Of a stretch of 64,000 nt of DNA, positions 19,435-61,354 are shown one piece after another. Both the position numbers and the translations under genes were made by a program. Numbering within the stretch: position 1 is the stretch's first letter; every line of letters begins with the position of its first letter. Origin of the DNA: Terebella lapidaria (taxonomy: Eukaryota > Annelida > Polychaeta > Terebellida > Terebellidae); contig OX424560.1 of assembly GCA_949152475.1 (NCBI GenBank), forward strand, positions 23,251,106 to 23,315,105, given 5' to 3'. The notes beneath the pieces were generated by a model. The model was given only the letters and a program-made list of their open reading frames with translations. It made no database searches and was not told where the DNA came from.

Positions 19435-19888
19435 TATGGCGCCCCGTTCGTGCCACCAATAAGGGAAGTTATTTTTTATTTATCTCATACGTATGAAATA
19501 AGAAGTCATACGTGGGAGATACTAACACATACGTATGAGATAACAAGTCATACGTAGGAAATACTAACACATACGTATGAAATACTAAGTCATACGTAGG
19601 AGATACTATGACATACGTATGAGATACTAAGTCATATGTATGAGATACTAAGTCATACGTAGGAGATACTATGTGTAACTCATACGTATGACTTTTTATC
19701 TCATACATATGACTTTTTATTTCATACGTATGACTTATTATTTCATACGTATGACTTATTATTTCAGACGTATGACTTTTTATCTCATACGTATGACTTT
19801 TTATTTCATACGTATGACTTTTTATTTCATACGTATGAGTTGGAAAAAAAATAAATTCTCTTTTTTGTGGCACGAACGGGGCGCCATA
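19435..19888. mobile_element. Fold-back element III, CATACGTATG word array, 6-bp duplication
   Basis: The terminal inverted repeats begin TATGGCGCCCCGTTCGTGCC and match over 22 bp. The 6-mer CTTATA flanks both sides (19429-19434 and 19889-19894). Copy B has a single CTTATA at the matching point (about 43075-43080), so this is an insertion with a confirmed empty site. The interior is a run of the self-complementary word TCATACGTATGA and variants such as AGTCATACGTAGGAGATACT, giving a 454-bp cruciform-capable sequence. The long frames on both strands are translations of the word array, not genes. Confidence 0.88.
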
Positions 19889-21312: not shown

Positions 21313-21316
21313 CACA
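21313..21316. repeat. Target-site duplication CACA, left of retroelement 1
   Basis: The 4-mer CACA is repeated at 31710-31713 directly after the 3' LTR. In copy B the site is uninterrupted near 44464-44467, with one CACA. This fixes both element ends and shows that insertion followed the duplication. Confidence 0.85.
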
Positions 21317-21400
21317 TGTAACAAAACCATGCAACTGCCGCGCTGAAACGTTCGTTAGGAACGGTCACGTGATCTACAAAGTCCACTTGCGAAGACACCG

Positions 21401-21622
21401 TTCGCGGAAGAACCGTTCGCGGAAGCACGATTGCGGAAGCATCATTAGCGGAAGCATCGTTCGCGGAAGAACCGTTCGCGGAAGCACGATTGCGGAAGCA
21501 TCGTCAGCGGAAGCATCAGTCGCGGAAGCACCGTTCGCGGAAGAGGAGCCTTCGCGGAAGAACCGTTCGCGGACGCAGTCTTCACCACGTGGAGAAGAGT
21601 GCGGAAGATACGTTCGCGGACG
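21401..21622 (+). promoter_or_regulatory. TTCGCGGAAG array in LTR U3 (retroelement 1, 5')
   Basis: By hand count there are six exact TTCGCGGAAG words, two TTCGCGGACG variants and about six shorter GCGGAAG forms, spaced mostly at about 15 bp. The array ends about 25 bases before the TATA box, the position expected of an enhancer. The word matches the STAT consensus TTC-N3-GAA and contains the ETS core GGAA. Which protein binds is not known. Confidence 0.8.
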
Positions 21623-21647
21623 AAGATGCGCGCGCAGCCACCCTGGC

Positions 21648-21655
21648 TATATAAG
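21648..21655 (+). promoter_or_regulatory. LTR TATA box (retroelement 1, 5')
   Basis: TATATAAG immediately downstream of the repeat array. The same box occurs in all four LTRs and in the internal promoter of the extra ORF. Confidence 0.8.
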
Positions 21656-22214
21656 GGAGAGCGGACGGCCGCTCTGAGAGCACTGCAACAGCGACATCGA
21701 CCGTGGGGAGATCGTCACCGCCACAGCCAAGGGACTCGACGAACTCCGTGCGGACGACTCCTTCTTCAGGGCCTTAGAGTCAACCGGGATTAGACCGACT
21801 ACCTGGAGAAACCATTCGACTAAACGGGACGGGAAACTTCAACGGGAAGGGACAGAGAGACGCCGCCGGCTAAGAACTCTTTTTAGTTGTGCCCTCGTGC
21901 ACTATTTATTTTTGAAATGTGATCATACAGTGCTCCATGTCTGAACTTCATATTTGTACGTCACGTGGGTGACCAGCCATACAATTGTAAGTTGATTTGA
22001 TGTATATAAATCTTCAATTTATTTACATCTGAGTTGCTTCTTGCCTAAGTGAAGCCGGTGAGCTACGGAGTGATGATACACCAGCGTTGGGGGACACCAA
22101 TTTAGTGACGGCTCTCGAATCACAACGAGCGGGAGTTACATAAAGTCTATACGATCAGAGAAACCAGGTTTTTTGGGCCACACCGAAAACAAGTCATTAC
22201 CAAACGTCACAACT

Positions 22215-22227
22215 TGGTGCCGTGACC
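22215..22227 (+). other. Primer-binding site, tRNA-His type
   Basis: TGGTGCCGTGACC starts three bases after the LTR. Its complement ends GTCACGGCACCA, which matches the 3' end of eukaryotic tRNA-His plus CCA as I recall it. The same site lies at 53987-53999 in element 2. Confidence 0.75.
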
Positions 22228-22274
22228 AGGATCCCCGAGGGTCTACTGCCAGGGAACGAACCTCAGCATCACTC

Positions 22275-24545
22275 ATGTCCGGCGAAAACGACGAAACTGC
22301 CCCAGGGAAGACAGGAGGTGAAGAGGAAGACTCTTCGCGGACGGCCTCACTTGCGGACGAGGAAGACAGCGGTTCGCGGAAGCCGACCTTTCCGGAAGAG
22401 GGAGACGGCCGTTCGCGGAAGACGACCGTTCGCGGAAGACGTTCGCGGACGACAACCGTTCGCGGAAGACGACCTTGGCGGAAGAGACCGACGACCGTTC
22501 GCGGAAGACAACGTTCGCGGAAGACGACCGTTCGCGGAAGAGCAGCTTCACAGCCAGGGGTAGACGGGACGTTTCGACGAGTGAGGAGCAACCAGGGAGG
22601 TCGAGACCTTCCATGGGCCAGTCGACTAGTCAACAGAGACCCCGGAGCCAGACACCCGACAACCGTTTTCTTTTCAGACACGACTCTGGATGGCAGCACG
22701 ATCGAGACAGGGAGAGGTCAACCTACCTTGAGAGCGTTAGGAGGGGCCCCGAGTTCCGACGAGTGCTGGGACCGGAGTACGTCAATCTGGACGGGGAGGA
22801 CGGCGAAATCTGGGCGAGGAGGGATCGGCTACAGCTACCGGAGCAGAGTCCAAGTGTGGCACCTCCAGAGAATGCAGCATTGAGACGGCTTTGGGACCAG
22901 TCCCAGCAGCAGTCTGGTGCAACAGGGCAGCGGTCTGGTGTGACGAGTCGACAAACGGGAGTGACTGGAGGACGGGTTACTTGGGCTCCGACCCAAGAGA
23001 GCAGCTCGAGAGGGAGAGGACTTTTCGCGGAAGAGAACATTCGCGGACGAGAGGCATTCTTCGGCGACAGGGACGCTTGCAGCCGGGGATCCTTCGTGGA
23101 TGAACGGGCTCGTGGGCGAGGGGGAGTCTTTGGTGACGAGGACGCTTGTGACCGGGGAGGGCCCTTCGCGGACGACCACGTTCGCGGACGAGGACGACTC
23201 GCGGAAGAGAGTGTTCGCGGAAGAGAGGAGTCTTCACCCAGACGGCGGCTCGACGAAAGGAGTGATCCAGGCGACCAATCTTCCTTTCCAGTTTTTCAGA
23301 ATAGACGGGGAAGACCATTCGCGGATGAGCCGGTTCGCGGAAGACTCGCGGAAGATGGCGTTCGCGGACGTACATCTTTTGTGGAGGGACGTCTCCGAGA
23401 CATCTTGGCGGACGAGCCCGTTCGCGGAAGACTCGCGGAAGACGGCGTTCGCGGAAGGGGCCTGTTCGCGGAAGAACTTCTTCGGGAGCTGCTGGCGGAA
23501 GAGTCCATTCGCGGAAGGTTCGCAGAAGACAGTGTTCGCGGAAGGTTCGCGGAAGACAGCGTCGTCCGAGGACAGCACAGCCTGGAATCAGAACGGCAGA
23601 AGGAACCGGAAGATGCTGACCCCTGACAAGTTCGATGGGACTTCCATAGAGTGGCCGGTGTACCGGGCCCACTTTGACGTCATCGCAGAGGTCAACGGAT
23701 GGAGCAAGCGGGAACAGGGCGTCTACTTAGCCGGGAGCTTGACAGGAGAGGCGCGACGAATGCTGACCAGCCTGAGTCCTGCAGACCGGAGGGACATCGA
23801 CGTTCTGACCGACAAGCTGACCCTACGATTCGACCCTGACTGTCAGGAGGAGTCCTACAAGGCGACCTTGGGACAGAGAACCCGCAGGAAGGCAGAGACA
23901 CCCCAGCAGTACGGCTATGAGTTGCAGCGACTGGCCGGCCGTGGTTATCCGGATCTGAACTCCGCAGCTCAGGAGGCTATCGCCTTAGACCACTTCTGGA
24001 AGGGCCATCCAGATGGGGACATGAAGGTGATGGCGCTCATGAGGAAGATGAAGACCATGGAGGAGGCCATAGCGTTCGTGACCCAGTACGAATGTGTCAA
24101 ACCCAAGCCTGGGAAGCCGGTGATGTCCATAGAGTCGGAGGACTCCGAGCCAGCTCTAGGACGGGTCCTACAGCTATTAAAGAACCAGCAGGGAGGCGAG
24201 ATTACCACCAGTGGGCAGCAGAGCAACCAGCCGAACGTATCGGGTCTACCCAGACTTCCCTACTTCAAGGGGCTCTTTGAGAGCCAAGACAGGAAGCTGG
24301 ATCGACTAATCGAGCTGTGTGAGCAGGTGCTATCCATCAAGCCGAGGGCCGCCACTGCTGAGAACAAGGGACCAAGCGCTAGGCCGGGACCAGATGACTG
24401 TTGGTACTGTGGGAAGCCGGGTCATCGGAAGTACCAGTGTCCAGATCGGCCGCCACCTCGGACCAAGGAGGAGCGCTTGAGTCGACTAATCGAGGAGATT
24501 GGTGAGCGGAACAGTTTGACAGACGAGGAGTCGGAAAACCAGTAG
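22275..24545 (+). pseudogene. gag region of retroelement 1 (broken)
   Basis: Encodes the structural polyprotein that would form the retrotransposon particle. The first half is an Arg/Asp/Glu-rich, low-complexity segment written largely from the TTCGCGGAAG word. The second half resembles a Ty3/gypsy capsid, with a motif such as FDGTSIEWPVYRAHFDVIAE followed by helices. A CCHC zinc knuckle, CWYCGKPGHRKYQC, is at 24399-24440. The gag of element 2 is the best whole comparison. This copy is broken, with about two breaks. I take the ATG at 22275 as the likely family start because it follows the primer-binding site by about 50 bases. The stop lies shortly before the pol frame. Confidence 0.85.
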
Positions 24546-24568
24546 GGCTCATACCAGCCCCCAACCGT

Positions 24569-27500
24569 ATGGGCCATTGGCAGGTGTGTGCACGGCTTCA
24601 CAGGCGAGAAGCTCGACGAAGACGTGAAGAACACATTGCCAGGGGGGAATTTTTAGTTTCACAGATTTTTAATAGGTTTTTCCGGTGTGCATCCGAAGTA
24701 ACTGGATGGGCGCAGGAGGAGCTCGAGGATCGAATTCTCGACTATTTGGAGGGCAAGCCTGTCAACACAGACGGGAGTGCCAATGTACAGCAAACCGATG
24801 GAGCCGTGGAGCGTCTAATGCCCCGCGGAGACGTCAAGGAAATGCAGACCGATGGAGCCGTGGAGCGTCTGATGACCCACGGAGACATCAACGAGGTTTC
24901 TGCTAGCAGCAAGGAGAACCAACAGGTTACAACCTTGAGGCTGGAGGCTGCGAAACAGCAGGGACCCCCCTATGCAACTGAACCACAAGCGGCCGTGAAA
25001 GAGGAGACGGAGGGCCGGTGGAGCGGAATGACCAAGGGGCCAGCGCAGCAGCTATTGCTGGTGGATGACTCATTACTTATCCGGAGCGGCGGTTCCGAGG
25101 GGAGTGATTCCCTTAAGACTGACAGAGAGGACCAGGGTGGTGCATCACTGTGGGTGGACGACTCAGTACTTATCCAGGGCGGCGTCCCTGAGGAGAGTGG
25201 CAGCTCTCTTAAGATTGACAGAAATGGCCAGGTGGTGTCGCTGTCAGCCGGTGCCCGAGGCACATTGGCGTGGTATGCGGCGTGCCACGTTATGGGGAAG
25301 GCGACTCGTATGTTGGTGGACACGGGTGCCTCTTCCACCGTTCTGGACGAGTGTCTCTTCGACCAAATGGATGACGAACGTAGTGATGAGCTCGGGCCAC
25401 GAGGACGCCGTCTACACACTGGTGACGGAGGAGACGGTCGTCTTGCCACCCTTTTCAGAGATGATGGTGGACCTCAAGCTGACAGGAAGTGAGGGAGGAG
25501 TTCCGAAGGCCGGCCTCGTGCAGTCCGCAAGAGAGCCGTTGGAGGACGACCCCCTCGTAGTGGGACGAGCCCTGGTACGACCCCGAGGACGCCTGGTACC
25601 GGTGGTACTTCTGAACGCCGGCGCTGGAGCTTGCACTGTGCTGATGGGGACCATCCTAGCCGAGCTTCACGGAATAGAGGCCGTGATCGACCTGGGATTT
25701 CGTCCCGATGGAGGGAAAACAACCCAGAATGAACCTAAAAGGGAACAGTGGTACCGGGAGGAGAGCGGGAGGGAGCATGAGCCCCTTACACCAAACTCCA
25801 CCAAGTGGCGGAACCGGACGCCTGAGCAGCCCGAAACCAGAGTGCACGCCATGCACGCAGAATCGTCGACGAAGACACCAGAGTGCCCGGAGCATTTAGA
25901 ACCGCTCCTGGAGGGAATGCATCCGAACTTGACGGAAAAGGAGGTGGAGGTCGTCAGCGATCTCCTTCGACGCCACCAGCAGGTCTTTATGGGACCAGAT
26001 GGGAGGTTGGGCCGGACGTCCCTGGCGAAACACGTCATCGACACGGGAGATCACCCCCCGATCAAGCAGCCTCTGAGGAGAGCCCCGTACTACCAACAAG
26101 AGCTGATCGAGGACGAGGTCGACAAGATGTTGAAAGCTGACGTTGTGGAGCCAAGCGACAGTCCATGGTCGTCTCCCATCGTGCTAGTGAAAAAGAAGGA
26201 TGGTGCACTGAGATTTTGCGTCGACTACCGCCGTCTAAATGATGTCACCCGGAAGGATGCGTACCCCCTGCCTCGAGTCGACGAGAGTTTTGATACCTTG
26301 TCAGGAGGACGATATTTTTCGACGCTAGACTTGGCTAGTGGTTACTGGCAGGTCGAGATGGACGACAGGGACAAGGAGAAGACGGCGTTCACTACCCGTA
26401 GTGGACTCTATCAATTTAAAGTGATGCCGTTTGGATTGGCGACGGCCCCGGCTACTTTTGAACGTCTAATGGAGCTGGCACTGAGGGGACTCCAATGGAA
26501 GCGTTGTCTAATTTATTTGGACGATGTCGTCTGTCTTGGAAAGACTTTCCAAGAAGCCGTGGACAACCTCGAGGACGTGTTCCGGAGACTGCAGGCTGCC
26601 GGGCTGAAGCTGAAACCCGCCAAGTGTGAGCTGTTTCGACAACAGGTCAACTTCCTGGGCCATGTCGTGTCCGACCGAGGCATCCAGTGCGACCCTGCCA
26701 AGGTCGAAGCTGTAACAAAAATGGTTCCTCCGACCACCTTGACAGAACTAAGGAGCTTCCTTGGGTTCGTGGGGTACTACCGCAGATTCATCCCTGACTT
26801 TGCCACCCGAGCGGGACCCCTCAACCACCTGTTAAAGAAGGAAGTCAACTACCATTGGAGCGAGGCTCATCAGCAGGCGTTCGAGGCGCTGCGTCAACCC
26901 CTGACCGAGCACCCCCTGCTGGTGTACCCTGACATGGACCAAGAATTTATTTTAGATACTGATGCTAGCGGCTACGGAGTGGGAGGCGTCTTATCCCAAG
27001 TGCAGGACGGACGAGAGCAGGTGATCGCCTATGCTTCCAGAACCCTGAGGGACACCCAGCGGAATTACTGCACCACCAAGCGGGAGCTCCTGGCCGTCGT
27101 CAGTATGATACACCATTTCAGACATTTCTTGTGGGGGAGAGCGTTCTTACTACGAACCGACCACGCCTCTCTCAAGTGGCTACTGAACTTTCGGGATGCG
27201 GAAGGAATGATCGCTAGATGGGCAGCTCGCATCGCCAGCTACGCCTTCAGGTGTGAGGTCCGACCGGGAGTACGACACGGGAATGCAGACGGGATGTCCA
27301 GATGCCGACAGTGCCGGAGACCGGATTGTCCCGCCCCTCGCCACACCACAAGACCCGAAGGAGAAGAGGAGGCCTGTCCGACTCAGGAGGAGTGTCCCCT
27401 ACCCCTGGAGGACCTCTCTGACGAGGATCTGCTTCCACCGATCAGCGGAGAAGGATGGAGCCCCGGAGGACCTCAAGTTAACATCTTGCGGGAGGTCCCT

Positions 27501-29357
27501 GTGGAGCCCTGGACGGAGGACTACTATTGCGGAGATGGAGTCGGGATATTCCAGATCTGGGAGGTGCGCTGCCAGGAGGACCCGAGGACGACTACCCAGC
27601 CGACCGAGGAATGCCTGCCTGACCGGAGCCCCCCACAGACGGAGGAAGGAGCCAGGAGCGTCTGCAGAACCCTGCATCAGCTCCGCCCCTCTGCCTGGGT
27701 TTGGTTTCTCCTGATGATGCTCCTCGCACTGCATGGTTTGGGACCGGAGGTTGTGGCCGGAGCAGCGATCGGCGCGACGGCCGACGTGTGGATGCGCTGC
27801 CGAGAGGAGCCCTTCCTGGACCCATGCCCCAACCCTGTGATCCGAGATCCAGACAAACAAATGCTAGCTGTCACGCGGGCTATGGCTATGAGAGGACGCC
27901 GGAATCCGATGGAGGGAGCCCCGGAGGCCCAGGTCCTGAATGGTTATTCCCAGGAGGACCTAGTGACCCTTCAACGAGCCGACCCTGAAGTTGGAGGCAT
28001 CCTCGGGTGGAAGAATATTTTCACTGAGAGACCTGCATGGCCCGAAGTCAGAACAAAAAGTCAGCAAATGAAGACTCTGTGGCAACAGTGGGACCAGCTG
28101 GAGCTACGTGATGGGCTTCTGTACCGGCGGTACCAAGCGGCTTGCCAGAACGCACCAATCCATCAACTGGTCGTTCCACAGGTCCTGAGACGCGCCGTCA
28201 TGAAGGAGGTCCACACCGGCAAGCTGATGAGCCACCAGGGAGTCACCAAAACAGTCCACCGACTAAAAGCGAGAATGTACTGGCCGGGTATGACGAAGGA
28301 CGTGGAGCGTTGGTGCCGGGAGTGCCTGAAGTGTAGTGGGAGAAAGCCGCGACCGGGGCCCAAGTACCACCCCATGGGAAATCTACCGGTAGGCGATCGG
28401 CTAGAAAGGGTGGCCATGGACATTTTGGAGCCTGGAACGATCACCAATTCTGGGAACCGGTATATACTGGTCGTGGGTGATTATTTCACCAAGTGGACTG
28501 AGGCCTACGCTCTACCCAACCATGAGGCTCAGACGGTGGCGGACGTCTTTGTGACTGAGTTCGTGTGCCGCCTGGGAATGCCAGCCAAGATACACACCGA
28601 CCAGGGACGAGAGTTCGAGAGTAAGCTTTTCCTCGAGATGATCAAGATCCTAGGAGGGGAGAAGACTCGGACGACCCCTTATCACGCCAAATCAGACGGG
28701 ATGGTCGAGCGATTCAACCGGACCCTGCTGAACCTTCTGGCCGTGGTCGTGGACGAGAACCATGACGACTGGGACGACCATCTGCCCTACGTGATGGCGA
28801 CTTATAGAACATCAGTACACGAAAGCACCGGGTGTACACCATTTCGAATGATGATGGGACGGGAGGCAACCACCCCATTGGACCTGAGGTACCGGACGAA
28901 ACCGGACGATTTGGGAGGACCAGTCCCCGAGTGTGCGTCCGAATACGTCGAATGGGTGAAGGAAGCCACCATACAAGCTCACGAGACTGCCCGAGAGTGC
29001 CTGAAGACGGCTACGGTGCGACAAAAGCGCCATCATGACGTGAAATCAGCCGCTCGACATTTTCCGGTGGGCACCTGGGTGATGTATTGGTACCCTCCAA
29101 AGGCTAGACCAAAACTAGGACTAGGGTGGACGGGACCTTATCTCGTTGTGAAGTCTCATCTCGGATGGATGGTGTCCATACAAGATCGACCCGGTGGCAA
29201 GATTAAAGATGTCCACATTGACAATATAAAAAGGTGCTGGTTCACCCCTGAAACCGACGCCTGGATACCCAATCCGGACGATGTGACCCCAGTCCGGACC
29301 CCCAGTGATGACGAGGGACGAGTGGAAAACAGCGGGAATGCAGTCCAAACGATGTAA
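24569..29357 (+). pseudogene. pol region of retroelement 1 (about one break; RT to integrase look whole)
   Basis: Polyprotein with enzymes in Ty3/gypsy order. The protease has the DTGAS active site at about 25319. Reverse transcriptase spans roughly 26030-26770, with FCVDYRRLN and the catalytic YLDD at 26514-26525. RNase H lies at about 26940-27300, with DTDASGYGVGG and RTDHASLKWL. The integrase has a zinc-binding H..H..C..C module at about 28200-28340, a catalytic core with HTDQG near 28593 and VERFNR near 28702, and a GPY/F-like tail WTGPYLV at 29127-29147. A hydrophobic stretch lies between RNase H and integrase (27690-27740). The frame differs from gag, as in families that use frameshifting. 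About one break is present near the protease side. Confidence 0.93.
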
Positions 29358-29372
29358 ACGATGACGGGAGCG

Positions 29373-29486
29373 TTCGCGGAAGAACCGTTCGCGGAAGCAG
29401 CGTTCGCGGAAGCAGCGTTCGCGGAAGTACCGTTCGCGGAAGCACGTTCGCGGAAGCAGCGTTCGCGGAAGAACCGTTCGCGGAAG
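29373..29486 (+). promoter_or_regulatory. Internal TTCGCGGAAG array upstream of the extra ORF (element 1)
   Basis: Eight exact TTCGCGGAAG words at mostly 15-bp spacing begin just after the pol stop. They are followed by a TATA box and the ATG of the extra ORF. The same word fills the LTR U3. Position, spacing and TATA box support an internal promoter/enhancer; binding is inferred. Confidence 0.8.
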
Positions 29487-29554
29487 CAAGCGAAAAACGT
29501 TATTTCGTTCCACGACAATGCTTTTTCCCCCAGATCCCTGGTCCGCGCCTTTTC

Positions 29555-29562
29555 TATATAAG
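29555..29562 (+). promoter_or_regulatory. Internal TATA box for the extra ORF (element 1)
   Basis: TATATAAG, 42 bases from its first base to the ATG at 29597. A start site 25-30 bases downstream would leave a 5' leader of only about ten bases. The box and its surroundings are kept in element 2 (59200-59207). Confidence 0.75.
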
Positions 29563-29596
29563 CAGGCCGGCCTACGATTCCGTCATCACTTCAACC

Positions 29597-30694
29597 ATGA
29601 ACACACCAACTCTGCAGATCATTGAGCTACCCGCATTTGCAGACGAAGATTTCGGGGACGTTCCAGATTTCGACTTGGCTGACTTTCTGCCCCTTGAAGT
29701 CGACAAGATGAGCGACCCACCTACCAAGATAGACAAGCCGGACCGGAAGCGGGAGCGCTCGAGGAGCCGGGAGCGTCGTAAGGAGCCCCGAGGAGGTCGA
29801 CGGTCCCCTGCCCGGAAGTTGTCCACCGAGAGAGGGCGACGCTGGTGCAGTCCCTGCCGGATCCACGTGACGGCATCCAACTTTAGCCGACACGTGGCGA
29901 CCAAACACACGCAGAAGGAGGGGCGGCACCTCTGCAAGATGTGCAGCCAGCGATTCGCCCGCCGAGCCGACAGAGACCGGCATGAGACGTCGCATGTCAG
30001 CGGCAACACCCTCAAGCCAGGACGGAGGAGGACGACGACCGACACGCCCGTGTCCGACCCCCGAGATGGTCCGACTACTGTGTCTGCCCCTGAGCTGAAG
30101 ACTGTCAGCTTTGCGGCCAGCGGGACGACCAGCTCCACGCCGTCAAGCCCCCGGGAGGACGCCCCCAGGTCAGAGGACGCCCCAGACCCCGAGGACGACC
30201 CCCCGAATAGCGAAGAGGAACCGGAGTCTCAGCAGGAGCGGAGAGAGGCGGAATCCCCGGAGGCCCCCACCCCCGAGGACGACGGACCCCCCGTTCCCAG
30301 AGACTCGGCCCCTACCTACAAGCCCCTAGACCTGAGTTGGTACCTCAAGCCCGTTCCGGAGGAGGAGGACCAACTGCGACCGTATGTGGAGGGCCTGGGC
30401 AGAGCGGTCACTGCCGGAGAGAAGGCCCTGGAGGACCTGGCATCCACGATAGCCATGGGACGACGCCACCTCACCCAAGCGGAGGCTCGGCTCCAAGCCA
30501 AGGAGGAGCAGAGACAGCTCGAGGCCGAGGTGCTGCAGCTGCGAGGGGAGGCCTCTCAACGAGAGAAGAGCCACCGGAAAGAGCTGCGAGCCCACGTCCG
30601 AGAGACCAAGCTGCTCCGGGAACAGCTCCGAGCATATACAGACACTCGGGACAGGCTGGCGGAGACGTCCGAAAGCGAGGTGGATCGCCAGTGA
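29597..30694 (+). CDS. Extra ORF: zinc-finger, coiled-coil transactivator-like protein (element 1)
   Basis: 365 residues, not a known retrotransposon core protein. Residues 11-36 are acidic and hydrophobic (DFDLADFLPLE), like a transactivation segment. Residues 47-74 are Arg/Lys/Ser-rich, a likely nuclear localisation signal. Two C2H2 zinc fingers follow: C84-x2-C87-x11-H99-x4-H104 and C113-x2-C116-x12-H129-x3-H133. Residues about 150-245 are Pro/Glu/Asp-rich and disordered-looking. From about 255 to the end runs a charged heptad-like coiled coil, which suggests dimerisation. No signal peptide or membrane segment is seen, which argues against env. The ATG is chosen because it follows the internal TATA box closely. 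The frame looks whole here. The role as an activator of the LTR and of its own promoter is inference from architecture and from the shared DNA word. Confidence 0.8.
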   Translation: MNTPTLQIIELPAFADEDFGDVPDFDLADFLPLEVDKMSDPPTKIDKPDRKRERSRSRERRKEPRGGRRSPARKLSTERGRRWCSPCRIHVTASNFSRHVATKHTQKEGRHLCKMCSQRFARRADRDRHETSHVSGNTLKPGRRRTTTDTPVSDPRDGPTTVSAPELKTVSFAASGTTSSTPSSPREDAPRSEDAPDPEDDPPNSEEEPESQQERREAESPEAPTPEDDGPPVPRDSAPTYKPLDLSWYLKPVPEEEDQLRPYVEGLGRAVTAGEKALEDLASTIAMGRRHLTQAEARLQAKEEQRQLEAEVLQLRGEASQREKSHRKELRAHVRETKLLREQLRAYTDTRDRLAETSESEVDRQ

Positions 30695-30814
30695 AGTGGA
30701 GGGAGAGAGCCCTGTAAACAACAGACAGGCAGGAAAAGACGAAGAAGGAGGAAGAAGAGAAAAGAAGAGAGAGAAAGGATCAACGGGGACGTTGATCTCC
30801 AGAAAGGGTGGAGT
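30695..30814 (+). other. 3' untranslated segment with hairpin and purine-rich tracts (element 1)
   Basis: Holds a long purine-rich run (about 30732-30779). It also holds a perfect 8-bp stem GATCAACG with a GGGA loop (30778-30797). The short purine-rich stretch AGAAAGGGTGGAG directly before the 3' LTR is the best candidate for the plus-strand primer. The arrangement is the same in element 2 (60340-60459). Confidence 0.7.
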
Positions 30815-31709
30815 TGTAACAAAACCATGCAACTGCCGCGCTGAAACGTTCGTTAGGAACGGTCACGTGATCTACAAAGTCCACTTGCGAAGACACCGTT
30901 CGCGGAAGAACCGTTCGCGGAAGCACGATTGCGGAAGCATCATTAGCGGAAGCATCGTTCGCGGAAGAACCGTTCGCGGAAGCACGATTGCGGAAGCATC
31001 GTCAGCGGAAGCATCAGTCGCGGAAGCACCGTTCGCGGAAGAGGAGCCTTCGCGGAAGAACCGTTCGCGGACGCAGTCTTCACCACGTGGAGAAGAGTGC
31101 GGAAGATACGTTCGCGGACGAAGATGCGCGCGCAGCCACCCTGGCTATATAAGGGAGAGCGGACGGCCGCTCTGAGAGCACTGCAACAGCGACATCGACC
31201 GTGGGGAGATCGTCACCGCCACAGCCAAGGGACTCGACGAACTCCGTGCGGGCGACTCCTTCTTCAGGGCCTTAGAGTCAACCGGGATTAGACCGACTAC
31301 CTGGAGAAACCATTCGACTAAACGGGACGGGAAACTTCAACGGGAAGGGACAGAGAGACGCCGCCGGCTAAGAACTCTTTTTAGTTGTGCCCTCGTGCAC
31401 TATTTATTTTTGAAATGTGATCATACAGTGCTCCATGTCTGAACTTCATATTTGTACGTCACGTGGGTGACCAGCCATACAATTGTAAGTTGATTTGATG
31501 TATATAAATCTTCAATTTATTTACATCTGAGTTGCTTCTTGCCTAAGTGAAGCCGGTGAGCTACGGAGTGATGATACACCAGCGTTGGGGGACACCAATT
31601 TAGTGACGGCTCTCGAATCACAACGAGCGGGAGTTACATAAAGTCTATACGATCAGAGAAACCAGGTTTTTTGGGCCACACCGAAAACAAGTCATTACCA
31701 AACGTCACA
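30815..31709 (+). repeat. 3' LTR of retroelement 1
   Basis: 895 bp, identical to the 5' LTR except for one base that I can see. It carries the TTCGCGGAAG array at 30899-31120 and a TATA box at 31146-31153. It is followed by the CACA target-site duplication at 31710-31713. Confidence 0.95.
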
Positions 31710-32240
31710 CACATATAGATAAATACAATAGCGCGACACCGTGTTATCAGTCTATTGTTGGCATGGCGATGTTTTGTCATTCTTTGTACGTGCTTTGGAT
31801 TTATGAATATACTATAGGATATATGACATTCCCTTCTTGTATTCACATCCAGATAGATGGACGGTGGAGTCATGTCTTTCAGTTCAACAAACAGTCATTT
31901 TAGCGCGGCTGTTTTCAGCGCTGTCCAAACCCAACTCGACACATATGGACGCTGGCATATAATGAATCGTACATCCTCGACGACATACATGCCACAATTC
32001 TTAGATGTGTTAAGGTGTTTATCCATCTAAATGTATGCTGATATCCAAATCTGCAGAAATTTCAACACCTTTTTACTTCTGGGCTTTGCTGTATTGCTTC
32101 AAAATTGGAATTCAAATTCGTGAATTTAGATAAAGAAACGAACATATTGCTATCAATTTAGTCCCACATCTAGACAGTGTTGCGGCTGCGGAATTATCTA
32201 TCATCGCTGAGGTTGACCATTTAGCATGAAAACAGTTTGA
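31710..32240. other. Spacer after retroelement 1, no gene seen
   Basis: Begins with the right-hand CACA duplication and continues the host sequence seen uninterrupted in copy B from about 44464. No feature is supported. The word TTCACGAATTTG-like in reverse recurs in copy B at high identity. Confidence 0.5.
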
Positions 32241-39162: not shown

Positions 39163-39740
39163 ATTTCAGATCACGTAAACCTACTCAGAAGTCATTGGCG
39201 TTAGCACAATGAAGGCTATCGTGAGGGAACGCGATCCAGAATGTGAGGGAACCAATAATATCACGAAGGAACGCGATCCAGAATGCGAGGGAATGCAATA
39301 GTATTGCGAGGGAACGTGATCCTGAATGCGAGGGAACGCGATCCGGAATGCGAGAAAACGCAATAAGATTGCGAGGGAACGCAATATTATTGCGAGAGAA
39401 CGCAATAACAATTAAGTAAAAAAATATTTCTCCCATGTCCTTTCAGCGGCTCTGTAGTGAGGAGTGTTATACATCAATTAGAAAAAAGCTATTTTGAGAA
39501 AACGGCCGTCAAAGTCCAAAATTGGTTGTTTTTCGTCAAAAATGGCCGCCATTTTGAAATAATTGCGAAAATCAAAAAAATAAAATGGACCTCCTTCTTG
39601 AAATATTTTTAGGCATTTTTGTGCAGAATTTCAGAAAGATTGAATCATAAGCTTCAAAGATAAAAATGTAGATGGACGACGACGACGACGGACGCAACAC
39701 CACGGCAATAGGTTTTCGGACCAAAGGCTCGGTAAGCTAA
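39163..39740. mobile_element. Right part of nested elements, truncated at the copy B boundary
   Basis: Bases 39163-39456 are the right part of fold-back II, and 39457-39740 are the right end of the surrounding terminal-inverted-repeat element. Both match copy A with only a few differences. The left parts are absent because the duplicated block starts here. Confidence 0.75.
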
Positions 39741-42544: not shown

Positions 42545-42548
42545 TTAA

Positions 42549-42965: not shown

Positions 42966-42969
42966 TTAA

Positions 42970-53088: not shown

Positions 53089-53983
53089 TGTAACAAAACC
53101 ATGCAACTGCCGCGCTGAAACGTTCGTTAGGAACGGTCACGTGATCTACAAAGTCCACTTGCGAAGACACCGTTCGCGGAAGAACCGTTCGCGGAAGCAC
53201 GATTGCGGAAGCATCATCAGCGGAAGCATCGTTCGCGGAAGAACCGTTCGCGGAAGCACGATTGCGGAAGCATCATCAGCGGAAGCATCAGTCGCGGAAG
53301 CACCGTTCGCGGAAGAGGAGCCTTCGCGGAAGAACCGTTCGCGGACGCAGTCTTCACCACGTGGAGAAGAGTGCGGAAGATACGTTCGCGGACGAAGATG
53401 CGCACGCAGCCACCCTGGCTATATAAGGGAGAGCGGACGGCCGCTCTGAGAGCACTGCAACAGCGACATCGACCGTGGGGAGATCGTCACCGCCACAGCC
53501 AAGGGACTCGACGAACTCCGTGCGGACGACTCCTTCTTCAGGGCCTTAGAGTCAACCGGGATTAGACCGACTACCTGGAGAAACCATTCGACTAAACGGG
53601 ACGGGAAACTTCAACGGGAAGGGACAGAGAGACGCCGCCGGCTAAGAACTCTTTTTAGTTGTGCCCTCGTGCACTATTTATTTTTGAAATGTGATCATAC
53701 AGTGCTCCATGTCTGAACTTCATATTTGTACGTCACGTGGGTGACCAGCCATACAATTGTAAGTTGATTTGATGTATATAAATCTTCAATTTATTTACAT
53801 CTGAGTTGCTTCTTGCCTAAGTGAAGCCGGTAAGCTACGGAGTGATGATACACCAGCGTTGGGGAACACCAATTTAGTGACGGCTCTCGAATCACAACGA
53901 GCGGGAGTTACATAAAGTCTATACGATCAGAGAAACCAGGTTTTTTGGGCCACACCGAAAACAAGTCATTACCAAACGTCACA
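53089..53983 (+). repeat. 5' LTR of retroelement 2
   Basis: 895 bp, TGTAAC to GTCACA. The TTCGCGGAAG array lies at 53173-53394 and the TATA box TATATAAG at 53420-53427. I see no difference from the 3' LTR. Confidence 0.95.
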
Positions 53984-53986
53984 ACT

Positions 53987-53999
53987 TGGTGCCGTGACC
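53987..53999 (+). other. Primer-binding site, tRNA-His type (element 2)
   Basis: TGGTGCCGTGACC, three bases after the LTR, as in element 1. Confidence 0.75.
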
Positions 54000-54046
54000 A
54001 GGATCCCCGAGGGTCTACTGCCAGGGAACGAACCTCAGCATCACTC

Positions 54047-56575
54047 ATGTCCGGCGAAAACGACGAAACTGCCCCAGGGAAGACAGGAGGTGAAGAGGAA
54101 GACTCTTCGCGGACGGCCTCACTTGCGGACGAGGAAGACAGCGGTTCGCGGAAGCCGACCTTTGCGGAAGAGGAAGACGACCGTTCGCGGAAGACGTTCG
54201 CGGACGACAACCGTTCGCGGAAGACGACCTTGGCGGAAGAGGCCGACGACCGTTCGCGGAAGACAACGTTCGCGGAAGACGACCGTTCGCGGAAGAGCAG
54301 CTTCACAGCCAGGGGTAGACGGGACGTTTCGACGAGTGAGGAGCAACCAGGGAGGTCGAGACCTTCCATGGGCCAGTCGGCTAGTCAACAGAGACCCCGG
54401 AGCCAGACACCCGACAACCGTTTTCTTTTCAGACACGACTCTGGGTGGCAGCACGATCGAGACAGGGAGAGGTCAACCTACCTTGAGAGCGTTAGGAGGG
54501 GCCCCGAGTTCCGACGAGTGCTGGGACCGGAGTACGTCAATCTGGACGGGGAGGACGGCGAAATCTGGGCGAGGAGGGATCGGCTACAGCTACCGGAGCA
54601 GAGTCCAAGTGTGGCACCTCCAGAGAATGCAGCATTGAGACGGCTTTGGGACCAGTCCCAGCAGCAGTCTGGTGCAACAGAGCAGCAGTCTGGTGCAACA
54701 GGGCAGCGGTCGGGTGTGACGAGTCGACAAACGGGAGTGACTGGAGGACGGGTTACTTGGGCTCCGACCCAAGAGAGCAGCTCGAGAGGGAGAGGACTTT
54801 TCGCGGAAGAGAACATTCGCGGACGAGAGGCATTCTTCGGCGACAGGGACGCTTGCAGCCGGGGATCCTTCGTGGATGAACGGGCTCGTGGGCGAGGGGG
54901 AGTCTTTGGTGACGAGGACGCTTGTGACCGGGGAGGGCCCTTCGCGGACGACCACGTTCGCGGACGAGGACGACTCGCAGAAGAGAGTGTTCGCGGAAGA
55001 GAGGAGTCTTCACCCAGACGGCGGCTCGACGAAAGGAGTGATCCAGGCGACCAATCTTCCTTTCCAGTTTTTCAGAGTAGACGGGGAAGACCATTCGCGG
55101 ATGAGCCGGTTCGCGGAAGACTCGCGGAAGATGGCGTTCGCGGACGTGCATCTTTTGTGGAGGGACGTCTCCGAGACATCTTGGCGGACGAGCCCGTTCG
55201 CGGAAGACTCGCGGAAGACGGCGTTCGCGGAAGAGGCCTGTTCGCGGAAGAACTTCTTCGGGAGCTGTTGGCGGAGGAGTCCGTTCGCGGAAGGTTCGCG
55301 GAAGACAGTGTTCGCGGAAGGTTCGCGGAAGACAGCGTTCGCGGAAGAGGGAGGTCTTCACCCAGTCGACAACCGAGACAGCCAGCCTCCTGGAGAAATC
55401 CAGCTTCTATTTCAGTCACCCAGGGAGGCCGGAGACAGCACCCTTTCTCATCATCGGGCGATGAGGGGCCTTCATCTGATGGAGGGACCGACAGCAGCCA
55501 TGGTTACCCAGGACGGGGGAGGAGACCACCGAGGCGGGGACCGCCGCTGCACCGACGAAGCCCTAGGCCGAGACGGAGGCAGGAGGACTCGTCGTCCGAG
55601 GACAGCACAGCCTGGAATCAGAGCGGCAGAAGGAACCGGAAGATGCTGACCCCTGACAAGTTCGATGGGACTTCCATAGAGTGGCCGGTGTACCGGGCCC
55701 ACTTTGACGTCATCGCAGAGGTCAACGGATGGAGCAAGCGGGAACAGGGCGTCTACTTAGCCGGGAGCTTGACAGGAGAGGCGCGACGAATGCTGACCAG
55801 CCTGAGTCCTGCAGACCGGAGGGACATCGACGTTCTGACCGACAAGCTGACCCTACGATTCGACCCTGACTGTCAGGAGGAGTCCTACAAAGCGACCTTG
55901 GGACAGAGAACCCGCAGGAAGGCAGAGACACCCCAGCAGTACGGCTATGAGTTGCAGCGACTGGCCGGCCGTGGTTATCCGGATCTGAACTCCGCAGCTC
56001 AGGAGGCTATCGCCTTAGACCACTTCTGGAAGGGCCATCCAGATGGGGACATGAAGGTGATGGCGCTCATGAGGAAGATGAAGACCATGGAGGAGGCCAT
56101 AGCGTTCGTGACCCAGTACGAATGTGTCAAACCCAAGCCTGGGAAGCCGGTGATGTCCATAGAGTCGGAGGACTCCGAGCCAGCTCTAGGACGGGTCCTA
56201 CAGCTATTAAAGAACCAGCAGGGAGGCGAGATTACCACCAGTGGGCAGCAGAGCAACCAGCCGAACGTAGCGGGTCTACCCAGACTTCCCTACTTCAAGG
56301 GGCTCTTTGAGAGCCAAGACAGGAAGCTGGATCGACTAATCGAGCTGTGTGAGCAGGTGCTATCCATCAAGCCGAGGGCCGCCACTGCTGAGAACAAGGG
56401 ACCAAGCGCTAGGCCGGGACCAGATGACTGTTGGTACTGTGGGAAGCCGGGTCATCGGAAGTATCAGTGTCCAGATCGGCCGCCACCTCGGACCAAGGAG
56501 GAGCGCTTGAGTCGACTAATCGAGGAGATTGGTGAGCGGAACAGTTTGACAGACGAGGAGTCGGAAAACCAGTAG
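54047..56575 (+). CDS. gag of retroelement 2 (looks whole)
   Basis: 842 residues from the ATG at 54047. The open frame extends further upstream into the LTR but without another ATG; the chosen start follows the primer-binding site by about 50 bases. The N-terminal half (about residues 20-500) is low-complexity and charged. It repeats RSRK, FAED and VRGR because the DNA word TTCGCGGAAG is read in all three frames, and about 17 exact copies are countable here. A Ser/Pro/Arg-rich stretch follows. The capsid-like domain with FDGTSIEWPVYRAHFD starts near residue 540, and the CCHC knuckle CWYCGKPGHRKYQC is close to the C-terminus. It would form the retrotransposon particle and bind its RNA. At 842 residues it is longer than a typical Ty3/gypsy Gag, and the excess is the word-array half. 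Confidence 0.88.
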   Translation: MSGENDETAPGKTGGEEEDSSRTASLADEEDSGSRKPTFAEEEDDRSRKTFADDNRSRKTTLAEEADDRSRKTTFAEDDRSRKSSFTARGRRDVSTSEEQPGRSRPSMGQSASQQRPRSQTPDNRFLFRHDSGWQHDRDRERSTYLESVRRGPEFRRVLGPEYVNLDGEDGEIWARRDRLQLPEQSPSVAPPENAALRRLWDQSQQQSGATEQQSGATGQRSGVTSRQTGVTGGRVTWAPTQESSSRGRGLFAEENIRGREAFFGDRDACSRGSFVDERARGRGGVFGDEDACDRGGPFADDHVRGRGRLAEESVRGREESSPRRRLDERSDPGDQSSFPVFQSRRGRPFADEPVRGRLAEDGVRGRASFVEGRLRDILADEPVRGRLAEDGVRGRGLFAEELLRELLAEESVRGRFAEDSVRGRFAEDSVRGRGRSSPSRQPRQPASWRNPASISVTQGGRRQHPFSSSGDEGPSSDGGTDSSHGYPGRGRRPPRRGPPLHRRSPRPRRRQEDSSSEDSTAWNQSGRRNRKMLTPDKFDGTSIEWPVYRAHFDVIAEVNGWSKREQGVYLAGSLTGEARRMLTSLSPADRRDIDVLTDKLTLRFDPDCQEESYKATLGQRTRRKAETPQQYGYELQRLAGRGYPDLNSAAQEAIALDHFWKGHPDGDMKVMALMRKMKTMEEAIAFVTQYECVKPKPGKPVMSIESEDSEPALGRVLQLLKNQQGGEITTSGQQSNQPNVAGLPRLPYFKGLFESQDRKLDRLIELCEQVLSIKPRAATAENKGPSARPGPDDCWYCGKPGHRKYQCPDRPPPRTKEERLSRLIEEIGERNSLTDEESENQ

Positions 56576-56598
56576 GGCTCATACCAGCCCCCAACCGT

Positions 56599-59017
56599 AT
56601 GGGCCATTGGCAGGTGTGTGCACGGCTTCACAGGCGAGAAGCTCGACGAAGACGTGAAGAACACATTGCCAGGGGGGAATTTTTAGTTTCACAGATTTTT
56701 AATAGGTTTTTCCGGTGTGCATCCGAAGTAACTGGATGGGCACAGGAGGAGCTCGAGGATCGAATTCTCGACTATTTGGAGGGCAAGCCTGTCAACACAG
56801 ACGGGAGTGCCAATGTACAGCAAACCGATGGAGCCGTGGAGCGTCTAATGCCCCGCGGAGACGTCAAGGAAATGCAGACCGATGGAGCCGTGGAGCGTCT
56901 AATGCCCCGCGGAGACGTCAAGGAAATGCAGACCGATGGAGCCGTGGAGCGTCTAATGCCCCGCGGAGACGTCGACGAAATGCAGACCGATGGAGCCGTG
57001 GAGCGTCTGGGGACCCACGGAGACATCAACGAGGTTTCTGCTAGCAGCAAGGAGAACCAACAGGTTACAACCTTGAGGCTGGAGGCTGCGAAACAGCAGG
57101 GACCCCCCTATGCAACTGAACCACAAGCGGCCGTGAAAGAGGAGACGGAGGGCCGGTGGAGCGGAATGACCAAGGGGCCAGCGCAGCAGCTATTGCTGGT
57201 GGACGACTCATTACTTATCCGGAGCGGCGGTTCCGAGGGGAGTGATTCCCTTAAGACTGACAGAGAGGACCAGGGTGGTGCATCACTGTGGGTGGACGAC
57301 TCAGTACTTATCCAGGGCGGCGTCCCTGAGGAGAGTGGCAGCTCTCTTAAGATTGACAGAAATGGCCAGGTGGTGTCGCTGTCAGCCGGTGCCCGAGGCA
57401 CATTGGCGTGGTATGCGGCGTGCCACGTTATGGGGAAGGCGACTCGTATGTTGGTGGACACGGGTGCCTCTTCCACCGTTCTGGACGAGTGTCTCTTCGA
57501 CCAAATGGATGACGAACATAAAGCAATGATAAGGCAGACGAGAATAAGGTTACGGGCAGCAACCGGAGACTACTTACAGGTTCAAGGAGAGATGACAGTT
57601 CAACTTCTACTGGGCACACGACTCGTGTCGGCAGATGTACTGGTAGCCAAACTAGGGATCCCGGGAGTGTTGGGGCTTGATGTACTTCAACAGATTGGGG
57701 GACAGCTGGATCTGCGTAAGGGCGAGTGGCAGGTGGGTGACACTACCGTAGTGATGAGCTCGGGCCACGAGGACGCCGTCTACACACTGGTGACGGAGGA
57801 GACGGTCGTCTTGCCACCCTTTTCAGAGATGATGGTGGACCTCAAGCTGACAGGAAGTGAGGGAGGAGTTCCGAAGGCCGGCCTCGTGCAGTCCGCAAGA
57901 GAGCCGTTGGAGGACGACCCCCTCGTAGTGGGACGAGCCCTGGTACGACCCCGAGGACGCCTGGTACCGGTGGTACTTCTGAACGCCGGCGCTGGAGCTT
58001 GCACTGTGCTGATGGGGACCATCCTAGCCGAGCTTCACGGAATAGAGGCCGTGATCGACCTGGGATTTCGTCCCGATGGAGGGAAAACAACCCAGAATGA
58101 ACCTAAAAGGGAACAGTGGTACCGGGAGGAGAGCGGGAGGGAGCATGAGCCCCTTACACCAAACTCCACCAAGTGGCGGAACCGGACGCCCGAGCAGCCC
58201 GAAACCAGAGTGCACACCATGCACGCCGAATCGTCGACGAAGACACCAGAGTGCCCGGAGCATTTAGAACCGCTCCTGGAGGGAATGCATCCGGACTTGA
58301 CGGAGAAGGAGGTGGAGGTCGTCAGTTGTGTCAACAACCGCCGTCTAAATGAAGTCACCCGGAAGGATGCGTACCCTCTGCCTTGAGTCGACGAAAGATT
58401 TGACATCTTATCAGAAGGACGACGGAGATGGAGTTCGACAACCATTGGAGCGAGGCTCATCAGCAGGTGTTCGAGGCGCTGCGTCAACCTCTGACCGAGC
58501 GCCCCCTGCTGGTGTACCCTGATATGAAGTGTAGCAAGACCCAAAGGAGAAGAGGAGGCCTGTCCGACTCAGGAGGAGTGTCCCCTACCCCTGGAGGACT
58601 TCTCTGATGAGGATCTGCTTCCACCGATCAGCGGAGAAGGATGGAGCCCAGGAGGACCTCATCATCGTATTGGAGGTCCCTGTTGAGCCCTTGATGGAAG
58701 ATCACTATTGCGGAGATGGAGTCGGGATATTCCAGATCTGGGAGGTGCGACGCCAGGAGGACCCGAGGACGACTGCAGAGCCGACCGAGGAGTCCCTACC
58801 TGAAGACCGGAGCCCCCCACGACCGGTGAGCCATCGGCTAGAAAGGGTGGCGATGGATATTCTGGAGCCCGGGACCATCAACAATTTAAAAAGGTGCTGG
58901 TTTATCCTTCAAACTGACACCTGGATACCCAATCCGGACGATGTGACCCCAGTCTGGACCCCCAGTGATGACGAGGGACGAGTGGAAAACAGCGGGAATG
59001 CAGTCCAAACGATGTAA
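56599..59017 (+). pseudogene. pol remnant of retroelement 2 (several breaks)
   Basis: The beginning is well preserved. It has a 54-bp tandem repeat (about 56824-57030), a protease domain with DTGAS near 57457, and following sequence alike to element 1. After that only fragments of the RT, RNase H, linker and C-terminal parts are recognisable. The region is broken with several breaks (about four) and could not specify a complete polymerase. Confidence 0.85.
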
Positions 59018-59032
59018 ACGACGACGGGAGCG

Positions 59033-59131
59033 TTCGCGGAAGAACCGTTCGCGGAAGCGGCGTTCGCGGAAGTACCGTTCGCGGAAGCAGGTTCGCGGAA
59101 GCAGCGTTCGCGGAAGAACCGTTCGCGGAAG
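59033..59131 (+). promoter_or_regulatory. Internal TTCGCGGAAG array upstream of the extra ORF (element 2)
   Basis: Seven exact words, one fewer than in element 1, at about 15-bp spacing between the pol remnant and the internal TATA box. Confidence 0.8.
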
Positions 59132-59199
59132 CAAGCGAAAAACGTTATTTCGTTCCACGACAATGCTTTTTCCCCCAGATCCCTGGTCCGCGCCTTTTC

Positions 59200-59207
59200 T
59201 ATATAAG
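59200..59207 (+). promoter_or_regulatory. Internal TATA box (element 2)
   Basis: TATATAAG, 42 bases from its first base to the ATG at 59242, exactly as in element 1. The same sequence and distance in both copies support function. Confidence 0.75.
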
Positions 59208-59241
59208 CAGGCCGGCCTACGATTCCGTCATCACTTCAACC

Positions 59242-60339
59242 ATGAACACACCAACTCTGCAGATCATTGAGATACCCGCATTTGCAGACGAAGATTTCGG
59301 GGACGTTCCAGATTTCGACTTGGCTGACTTTCTGCCCCTTGAAGTCGACAAGATGAGCGACCCACCTACCAAGATAGACAAGCCTGACCGGAAGCGGGAG
59401 CGCTCGAGGAGCCGGGAGCGTCGTGAGGAGCCCCGAGGAGGTCGACGGTCCCCTGCCCGGAAGTTGTCTACCGAGAGAGGGCGACGCTGGTGCAGCCCCT
59501 GCCGGATCCACGTGACGGCATCCAACTTTAGCCGACACGTGGCGACCAAACACACGCAGAAGGAGGGGCGGCACCTCTGCAAGATGTGCAGCCAGCGATT
59601 CGCCCGCCGAGCCGACAGAGACCGGCATGAGACGTCGCATGCCAGCGGCAACACCCTCAAGCCAGGGCGGAGGAGGACGACGACCGACACGCCCGTGTCC
59701 GACCCCCGAGATGGTCCGGCTACTGTGTCTGCCCCTGAGCTGAAGACTGTCAGCTTTGCGGCCAGCGGGACGACCAGCTCCACGCCATCAAGCCCCCGGG
59801 AGGACGCCCCCAGGTCAGAGGACGCCCCAGACCCCGAGGACGACCCCCCGAATAGCGAAGAGGAACCGGAGTCTCAGCAGGAGCGGAGAGAGGCGGAATC
59901 CCCGGAGGCCCCCACCCCCGAGGACGACGGACCCCCCGTTCCCAGAGACTCGGCCCCTACCTACAAGCCCCTAGACCTGAGTTGGTACCTCAAGCCCGTT
60001 CCGGAGGAGGAGGACCAACTGCGACCGTATGTGGAGGGCCTGGGCAGAGCGGTCACTGCCGGAGAGAAGGCCCTGGAGGACCTGGCGTCCACGATAGCCA
60101 TGGGACGACGCCACCTCACCCAAGCGGAGGCTCGGCTCCAAGCCAAGGAGGAGCAGAGACAGCTCGAGGCCGAGGTGCTGCAGCTGCGAGGGGAGGCCTC
60201 TCAATGAGAGAAGAGCCACCGGAAGGAGCTGCGGGCCCACGTCCGAGAGACTAAGCTGCTCCGGGAACAGCTCCGAGCATACACAGACACTCGGGACAGG
60301 CTGGCGGAGACGTCCGAAAGCGAGGTGGATCGCCAGTGA
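59242..60339 (+). pseudogene. Extra zinc-finger ORF of retroelement 2 (about one break)
   Basis: Very close to the element 1 protein across the acidic N-terminus, basic region, both C2H2 fingers, Pro/Glu-rich centre and coiled coil. The zinc ligands are all present. About one break is present in the C-terminal part. The near-identity is expected from recent common origin and does not by itself show selection. Confidence 0.85.
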
Positions 60340-60459
60340 AGTGGAGGGAGAGAGCCCTGTAAACAACAGACAGGCAGGAAAAGACGAAGAAGGAGGAAGA
60401 AGAGAAAAGAAGAGAGAGAAAGGATCAACGGGGACGTTGATCTCCAGAAAGGGTGGAGT
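60340..60459 (+). other. 3' untranslated segment with hairpin and purine-rich tracts (element 2)
   Basis: Contains the same 8-bp stem with GGGA loop (60423-60442) and the purine-rich tract before the 3' LTR as element 1. Confidence 0.7.
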
Positions 60460-61354
60460 TGTAACAAAACCATGCAACTGCCGCGCTGAAACGTTCGTTA
60501 GGAACGGTCACGTGATCTACAAAGTCCACTTGCGAAGACACCGTTCGCGGAAGAACCGTTCGCGGAAGCACGATTGCGGAAGCATCATCAGCGGAAGCAT
60601 CGTTCGCGGAAGAACCGTTCGCGGAAGCACGATTGCGGAAGCATCATCAGCGGAAGCATCAGTCGCGGAAGCACCGTTCGCGGAAGAGGAGCCTTCGCGG
60701 AAGAACCGTTCGCGGACGCAGTCTTCACCACGTGGAGAAGAGTGCGGAAGATACGTTCGCGGACGAAGATGCGCACGCAGCCACCCTGGCTATATAAGGG
60801 AGAGCGGACGGCCGCTCTGAGAGCACTGCAACAGCGACATCGACCGTGGGGAGATCGTCACCGCCACAGCCAAGGGACTCGACGAACTCCGTGCGGACGA
60901 CTCCTTCTTCAGGGCCTTAGAGTCAACCGGGATTAGACCGACTACCTGGAGAAACCATTCGACTAAACGGGACGGGAAACTTCAACGGGAAGGGACAGAG
61001 AGACGCCGCCGGCTAAGAACTCTTTTTAGTTGTGCCCTCGTGCACTATTTATTTTTGAAATGTGATCATACAGTGCTCCATGTCTGAACTTCATATTTGT
61101 ACGTCACGTGGGTGACCAGCCATACAATTGTAAGTTGATTTGATGTATATAAATCTTCAATTTATTTACATCTGAGTTGCTTCTTGCCTAAGTGAAGCCG
61201 GTAAGCTACGGAGTGATGATACACCAGCGTTGGGGAACACCAATTTAGTGACGGCTCTCGAATCACAACGAGCGGGAGTTACATAAAGTCTATACGATCA
61301 GAGAAACCAGGTTTTTTGGGCCACACCGAAAACAAGTCATTACCAAACGTCACA
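60460..61354 (+). repeat. 3' LTR of retroelement 2
   Basis: 895 bp, TGTAAC to GTCACA, followed by the TTAC duplication at 61355-61358. The array is at 60544-60765 and the TATA box at 60791-60798. Confidence 0.95.

Follow-up and report, generated by a model that had tools for sequence, protein, structure and literature searches.

A Ty3/gypsy-type element in the annelid Terebella lapidaria carries a zinc-finger gene whose product is predicted to recognise the element's own repeated word

The regulator Tas (Bel1) of foamy viruses is expressed from an internal promoter, acts through response elements located both there and in the LTR to give positive feedback, and has been reported to dimerise, according to the portions of the two sources at hand (PMC3798896, PMC12789967). 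Among Ty3/gypsy elements, Cer1 of C. elegans encodes CERV, a nuclear regulator of genomic RNA export that is made from a spliced five-exon mRNA, with exons 1-3 in the gag frame, and that has a possible C4 finger, as given in the available part of its description (PMC10309623). In plants, the Ty3/gypsy element Grande is credited with an accessory gene in a long 3' internal region, producing a nuclear protein from its own promoter, in a title cited in two papers (PMC7264820, PMC11963269). The ORFs of Retand, another plant Ty3/gypsy element, are mostly antisense, and 57 of 104 antisense ORFs have a TRP28 domain, not C2H2 fingers, in the accessible text. For neither plant element do the available passages describe an operator word shared between LTR and internal region, or a match of a finger to such a word. 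The literature covered here, in part and at the level of titles and abstracts, yielded no Ty3/gypsy element whose finger protein targets a word of the element itself.

Here we describe such a candidate in T. lapidaria, in a window of 64,000 nucleotides (the whole stretch of DNA that was analysed; contig OX424560.1, positions 23,251,106 to 23,315,105). Our best reading of the sequence is that the element would work like the foamy-virus Tas system while being unrelated to it and no member of that group. The likeness consists of an extra, putative regulator gene near the 3' end, a predicted internal promoter and candidate sites at both promoters. In contrast to foamy virus, the reverse transcriptase (RT) is Ty3-like, no env was seen and the protein is of the C2H2 finger type; the internal box is found behind pol instead of within env, and there is an additional word cluster in gag. 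With CERV the locus shares an ORF between pol and the 3' LTR of a Ty3/gypsy element for a regulatory protein, here a predicted one; however, the possible finger of CERV is C4, not C2H2, and the part of its description at hand mentions no word arrays.

Two damaged copies of a Ty3/gypsy-type element

Element 1 (21317-31709, + strand) is a Ty3/gypsy-type copy with paired 895-bp LTRs (5' LTR at 21317..22211, 3' LTR at 30815..31709, both +) that show a single difference from each other. It is bordered by a 4-bp target duplication, CACA (left 21313..21316, right 31710-31713), and the window also contains, at about 44460-44468, a paralog of the target site that is undisturbed. A paralog of roughly 8 kb at 39163-47218 contains both element 1 flanks without the element, a duplication with a natural empty site. 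The primer binding site read from the sequence, TGGTGCCGTGACC (22215..22227, +), is presumably tRNA-His-like. Around 21987-22010 the LTR also contains GTAAGT together with a second TATATAA (22003, and 31501 in the 3' LTR), and of the poly(A) signals neither AATAAA nor ATTAAA was found in the LTR. Among further observations, the left flank has a 21-bp tandem array (CATACGTATGA..., 19485-19838), and fragments of a non-LTR-looking reverse transcriptase lie on the - strand at 47871-48994 (RVT_1, E 6.5e-15 and 0.008).

Element 2 (53089..61354, +) has identical LTRs and a TTAC target duplication. Its gag is a single open frame of 842 aa, and of its pol only short relics are left (58325-58880); in a BLAST self-comparison the relic at 58535-58823 is 89.5% identical to element 1, and the other long aligned blocks are 97.6-99.3% identical. 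Element 2, its LTRs being identical, appears to be a recently moved derivative that is largely pol-less but retains gag together with the array, the box and most of the finger ORF. Within its protease-bearing ORF, a 54-bp tandem repeat is present in 3.9 copies (56820-57029). Damage affects different genes in the two copies, namely gag and protease in element 1 and pol and the finger ORF in element 2, and the array, the box and the finger coding region are retained in both.

The original prediction had placed the element in Ty3/gypsy, and this assignment was borne out by RT scores and pol domain order, as well as by the paired LTRs, the short target duplications (CACA, TTAC) and, for element 1, the empty site. 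Within the best 60 of 205 matches to PDB chains, the RT is closest to Ty3 (E 5e-86, 292 bits), with 202 bits to an 'Enzymatic polyprotein', which we take to be that of a plant pararetrovirus, and 105 bits to Pr125Pol, which we take to be that of a foamy virus. The Pfam domain order RVT_1, RNase H, integrase is that of Ty3/gypsy; the integrase piece by itself scores slightly higher against PFV (59.6 bits) than against Ty3 (50.7 bits). Membership of the spumaviruses (foamy viruses) was considered and rejected: the RT is far closer to Ty3, and between pol and the 3' LTR there is no ATG-started ORF of at least 150 aa besides the finger ORF, and no env was seen. Inspection by eye of the element 1 pol ORF (25065-29357) also revealed a hydrophobic stretch, WVWFLLMMLLALHGLG, that resembles a membrane span and is located between RNase H and integrase.

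An internal array, a TATA box and a finger ORF behind pol

Behind pol, eight exact copies of the word TTCGCGGAAG form an array with a period of 14-15 bp (29373..29486, +), which is followed after 68 bp by the TATA box TATATAAG (29555..29562, +) and then by an ORF of 365 codons (29597..30694, +, ATG at 29597). The box has a chance expectation of 0.0006 per 110 bp, and TATATAA, which stands 34 bases before the ATG, occurs a single time in 22212-30814. This is the arrangement of eight words, box and ORF originally predicted. Element 2 has the counterpart on the same strand, with seven words (59033-59131), the same box (TATATAA at 59200) and the ORF (59242-60207). The description of the ORF as apparently whole holds for element 1; in element 2 a stop at codon 322 leaves 321 aa.

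The array and box had also been described as repeated in the U3. The same word and the same TATATAAG box are indeed there, the box at 31146, 25 bp downstream of the last word; the U3 array (30899..31120, +) is, however, more degenerate, and 'the same array' should be read as the same word in a degenerate array, since it has 14 GCGGA cores and only 6 exact words. When the window is compared with itself by BLAST, the match to U3 is confined to the array (29371-29488) and does not include the box region. The internal promoter is therefore not simply a copied LTR, as the two promoters share no BLAST match beyond the array, and LTR duplication was rejected as its source.

The frame of the finger ORF has the best codon-usage fit to pol. 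Between the two copies the ORF differs by 10 synonymous and 5 non-synonymous changes, one of the latter being the element 2 stop (pN/pS 0.165, p 0.0007), and codons 84-133, which encode the fingers, differ by one synonymous change only. The proposed comparison of synonymous with non-synonymous change thus gave a signal of purifying selection on the ORF, from two copies only; pieces of gag and protease, with synonymous to non-synonymous counts of 2:2, 2:4 and 3:2, have too few changes to judge.

The message for this ORF could be produced in more than one way. It might be delivered by splicing from the LTR promoter, in the manner of a retroviral env message, leaving the internal box secondary or idle, and we consider this unlikely but deserving of real weight. 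A candidate 3' splice site, TGCTTTTTCCCCCAG/A (29519..29533, acceptor 29534, +), lies upstream of the internal box, and its acceptor ranks second of 868 AG sites in 21600-31709. The donors ATT/GTAAGT (21987) and CCG/GTGAGC (22058) are located in the LTR, and the best-scoring donor lies elsewhere, at 24584; all these scores come from human matrices. CERV, too, is produced from a spliced mRNA in the available part of its description (PMC10309623). On the other hand, the sole TATATAA of the internal region stands 34 bases before the ATG and under an array, and splicing needs no such box. The internal-promoter route originally proposed retains its box and array, with acceptor 29534 offering an alternative, and both routes may serve the ORF. 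Because splicing is compatible with a protein that binds the word, our confidence in this route overlaps with that in the main reading.

The repeated word, its core and the fingers

In the whole window TTCGCGGAAG, a word with two CpGs, has 113 matches with at most one mismatch, against 2.7 expected. Of these, 109 fall within elements 1 and 2, without exception on the + strand; of the 4 located elsewhere, 3 are on the - strand. In addition to the internal and U3 arrays, the 5' part of element 1 gag contains a cluster that was absent from the original description (22334..23555, +; 28 words with at most one mismatch), and the GCGGA cores in 22212-23560 number 30 on + and 0 on -. Spacing of the words in gag is irregular (11-125 bp within sub-clusters). 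The gag of element 2 likewise has 28 words with at most one mismatch, all within its first 434 codons and distributed over the three frames as 12/10/6. Its 17 exact words compare with a mean of 0.19 (maximum 2) in 1000 synonymous shuffles, in which the protein was kept and codons were drawn from pol and the remainder of gag. The word in gag is kept at the level of nucleic acid, DNA or RNA, and not as a peptide, since it is spread over three frames and exceeds the codon shuffles. A selected peptide was rejected as the reason for the gag repeats, one word giving FAE, VRGR or SRK depending on the frame.

GCGGA is the commonest 5-mer both in U3 (14) and in the 5' part of gag (30); the short internal array, taken by itself, has several 5-mers of equal frequency, with CGTTC on top. 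Outside the three clusters the counts of GCGGA are close to background: 23561-29359 has 9 on the + and 3 on the - strand, where 11.1 are expected per strand, the finger ORF contains 4 against 2.4 expected, and the 45 kb outside the elements contain 15 on each strand.

The conserved part of the word is GCGGA-N-G. Across 58 non-overlapping element 1 sites, selected at three mismatches or fewer, conservation is 98-100% for the final G and for every base of GCGGA except its C; it is 93% for this C, 81-93% for TTC and 78% for the base after GCGGA. The 12 contiguous U3 units, which involve no site selection, have 0/72 mismatches in the core (GCGGA and final G), 8/36 in TTC and 15/60 in the spacers; the p-values obtained there, 9e-5 and 2e-6, overstate the significance because the units of an array are related to one another through duplication. 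The variable base after GCGGA is A in 12 and C in 2 cases in U3, A in 21, C in 8 and T in 1 in gag, and A in all 8 of the internal array. Between elements 1 and 2, the core changed at 1/253 positions and the rest at 19/1383, a difference that is not significant (p 0.35).

The protein was expected to have an acidic segment, a basic segment, two C2H2 fingers and a coiled coil, and this layout is what we see: an acidic, aromatic N-terminus, a basic segment at about 50-75, fingers at 84-133, an acidic linker and a long predicted helix at 257-364. Residues 10-34 have a net charge of -9 and 8 large hydrophobics, aromatic residues and leucine among them; the N-terminus has no match to a 9-residue activation pattern. 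In structure models built from single sequences, the C-terminal third is one long predicted helix (pLDDT 84-97 for 261-360), and the fingers reach pLDDT 77-79 (residues 81-120) and 56 (121-130) in the whole-protein model; modelled alone, the finger fragment is poor (pLDDT 58.6), finger 1 being without its helix. Fold searches with the whole model returned nothing significant.

The finger coding region (29846..29995, +) specifies ligands C84, C87, H99 and H104 for finger 1, with the non-standard spacing C-x2-C-x11-H-x4-H, and C113, C116, H129 and H133 for finger 2, with standard spacing. Pfam zf-H2C2_2 gives 16.5 bits for the whole protein and 20.4 for the finger fragment, both below its curated cut-off of 40, and Pfam finds no BTB match. 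The solved chains nearest to the fragment are those of ZNF524, ZNF568, Tramtrack and the RADR variant of Zif268 (E 0.0003-0.003). The two fingers of Tramtrack are in the same order and are joined by a linker that likewise counts 8 residues in the alignment, and its finger 1 also has N at 3 and R at 6. Finger 2 of the present protein (FARRADRDRH) resembles finger 1 of the RADR variant as well as wild-type finger 3 of Zif268 (FARSDERKRH). Overall similarity to both is low (E 0.002-0.003 for the fragment), and the rest of the protein matches neither.

The predicted contacts are T92, S94, N95 and R98 in finger 1 and R122, A124, D125 and R128 in finger 2. At helix positions -1, 2, 3 and 6, finger 2 has the quartet R-A-D-R, which by alignment is also that of finger 1 in the RADR variant, a three-finger protein for which the accessible Table 1 gives Kd values of 0.035 nM for GCGT, 0.068 for GCAC and 9.3 for GACC (PMC3002361). 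In the C2H2 code, R reads G, N reads A and D reads C, and in finger 3 of TFIIIA a Thr at the position of T92 leaves the base out of reach, as stated in the portion of the source at hand (PMC12264921). Finger 2 is thus predicted to read GCG and finger 1, with R, N and T at 6, 3 and -1, GAN, and with antiparallel binding the two triplets give a predicted target of GCGGAN. This would be the core of the word, with the N of the prediction at the varying base of the core, and the proposed comparison of finger specificity with the word ended in a match, predicted GCGGAN against conserved GCGGA-N-G. When predictions were scored at all offsets and on both strands of the array matrix, GCGGAN came first of 1024 five-base predictions with a flat background, for all sites, U3 and gag, tied only with its own complement. 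It ranks 11/1024 with a composition-weighted background, 23/1024 on the internal array alone and 1/16 among GNGGN. These ranks should be read with the code having been applied by an analyst who already knew the word, and two fingers cover 6 bp only.

A proposed circuit and other readings of the word

Established from the sequence are the arrays, the boxes, the ORF, the conservation of the core and the two-copy selection signal. On balance, and somewhat in favour, we read the ORF product as a self-encoded DNA-binding regulator with its fingers on GCGGAN that probably activates the internal and U3 promoters. It would be small and sequence-specific, encoded by the element for its own use, and its two fingers may bind the GCGGAN core of the repeated word. 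Dimerisation, probably through the C-terminal helix, would help the protein to fill arrays of weak 6-bp sites about 15 bp apart, and the acidic aromatic N-terminus probably activates transcription. Transcription of the gene is probably driven by a TATA promoter of its own, itself controlled by the internal array, with an RNA start predicted near 29585. The regulator would then act on the internal promoter, reinforcing itself, on the U3 promoter, which would drive gag-pol, and perhaps also through the words within gag. As regards a possible Tas-like circuit, the word is present in both promoters and the finger code matches its core; element 2, with most of pol lost, retains array, box and ORF, the latter cut at codon 322. 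Against this reading, all words of the elements lie on one strand, and operators need no fixed orientation.

A protein that binds the word need not activate. It could instead repress and act as a self-limiting brake on copy number, for which the binding evidence is identical to that for the activating regulator. Tramtrack, a sequence relative of both fingers, is itself a repressor. However, residues 10-34 look activation-like, even though the 9-residue pattern missed the N-terminus, and repression through the shared array would make the internal promoter switch itself off; we regard a repressor as improbable. It is equally improbable, in our view, that a host factor (ETS, STAT-like with TTCN3GAA, or similar) recognises the word and that the ORF product does something else. 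CGGAAG and TTCN3GAA do occur within TTCGCGGAAG, and we take them to be ETS-like and GAS-like sites, but GGAA is broken in 2/14 U3 and 9/30 gag cores, and in the contiguous U3 units 8/36 TTC cells vary against a constant GCGGA. An E2F pattern had no match in any of the three word clusters.

Slightly less credible still is that the word functions in RNA, with the protein as a factor for export, packaging or translation, as CERV is for Cer1. All element words are indeed on the sense strand, and all three clusters would be contained in genomic RNA. However, four array stretches fold no better, or only slightly better, than shuffles (z -0.72, 1.44, 0.74 and -1.78), and stable RNA structure was rejected as the reason for the arrays. 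Moreover, two of the three clusters lie directly upstream of TATA boxes, the finger residues fit the code for double-stranded DNA, and an mRNA from the internal promoter would be without the internal array. Least probable is that the arrays represent nothing more than neutral minisatellites that have spread inside the element and that the finger match is chance, at about 0.2% (2/1024) to 1% (11/1024) before analyst choices: slippage does generate tandem units, and core and non-core rates of change between copies are not significantly different, but the U3 core is invariant where spacers and TTC vary, and the gag words are irregularly spaced and in three frames, with the gag frame of element 2 open.

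Returning to the self-encoded activator, it is tempting to speculate, tentatively and with less confidence than we place in the activator itself, that it constitutes an independent foamy-like switch in a Ty3/gypsy lineage. Such a switch would combine a finger protein, a private promoter and the word in three places, including gag in three frames, so that operator DNA would shape part of Gag, and a pol-poor derivative would still carry it.

Transposons are usually thought to borrow the transcription factors of their hosts. If our reading is true, an element equipped with both its own factor and dozens of matching sites would be less dependent on the type of host cell, and this factor would couple the copies of the element in trans. 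It would also represent a compact natural case of a protein code and its DNA target that are legible in a single sequence, and gag would be an example of a coding region with its sequence determined by sites acting at the nucleic-acid level. Finally, it would mean that the plan of the foamy viruses has been reached by convergence outside the retroviruses.
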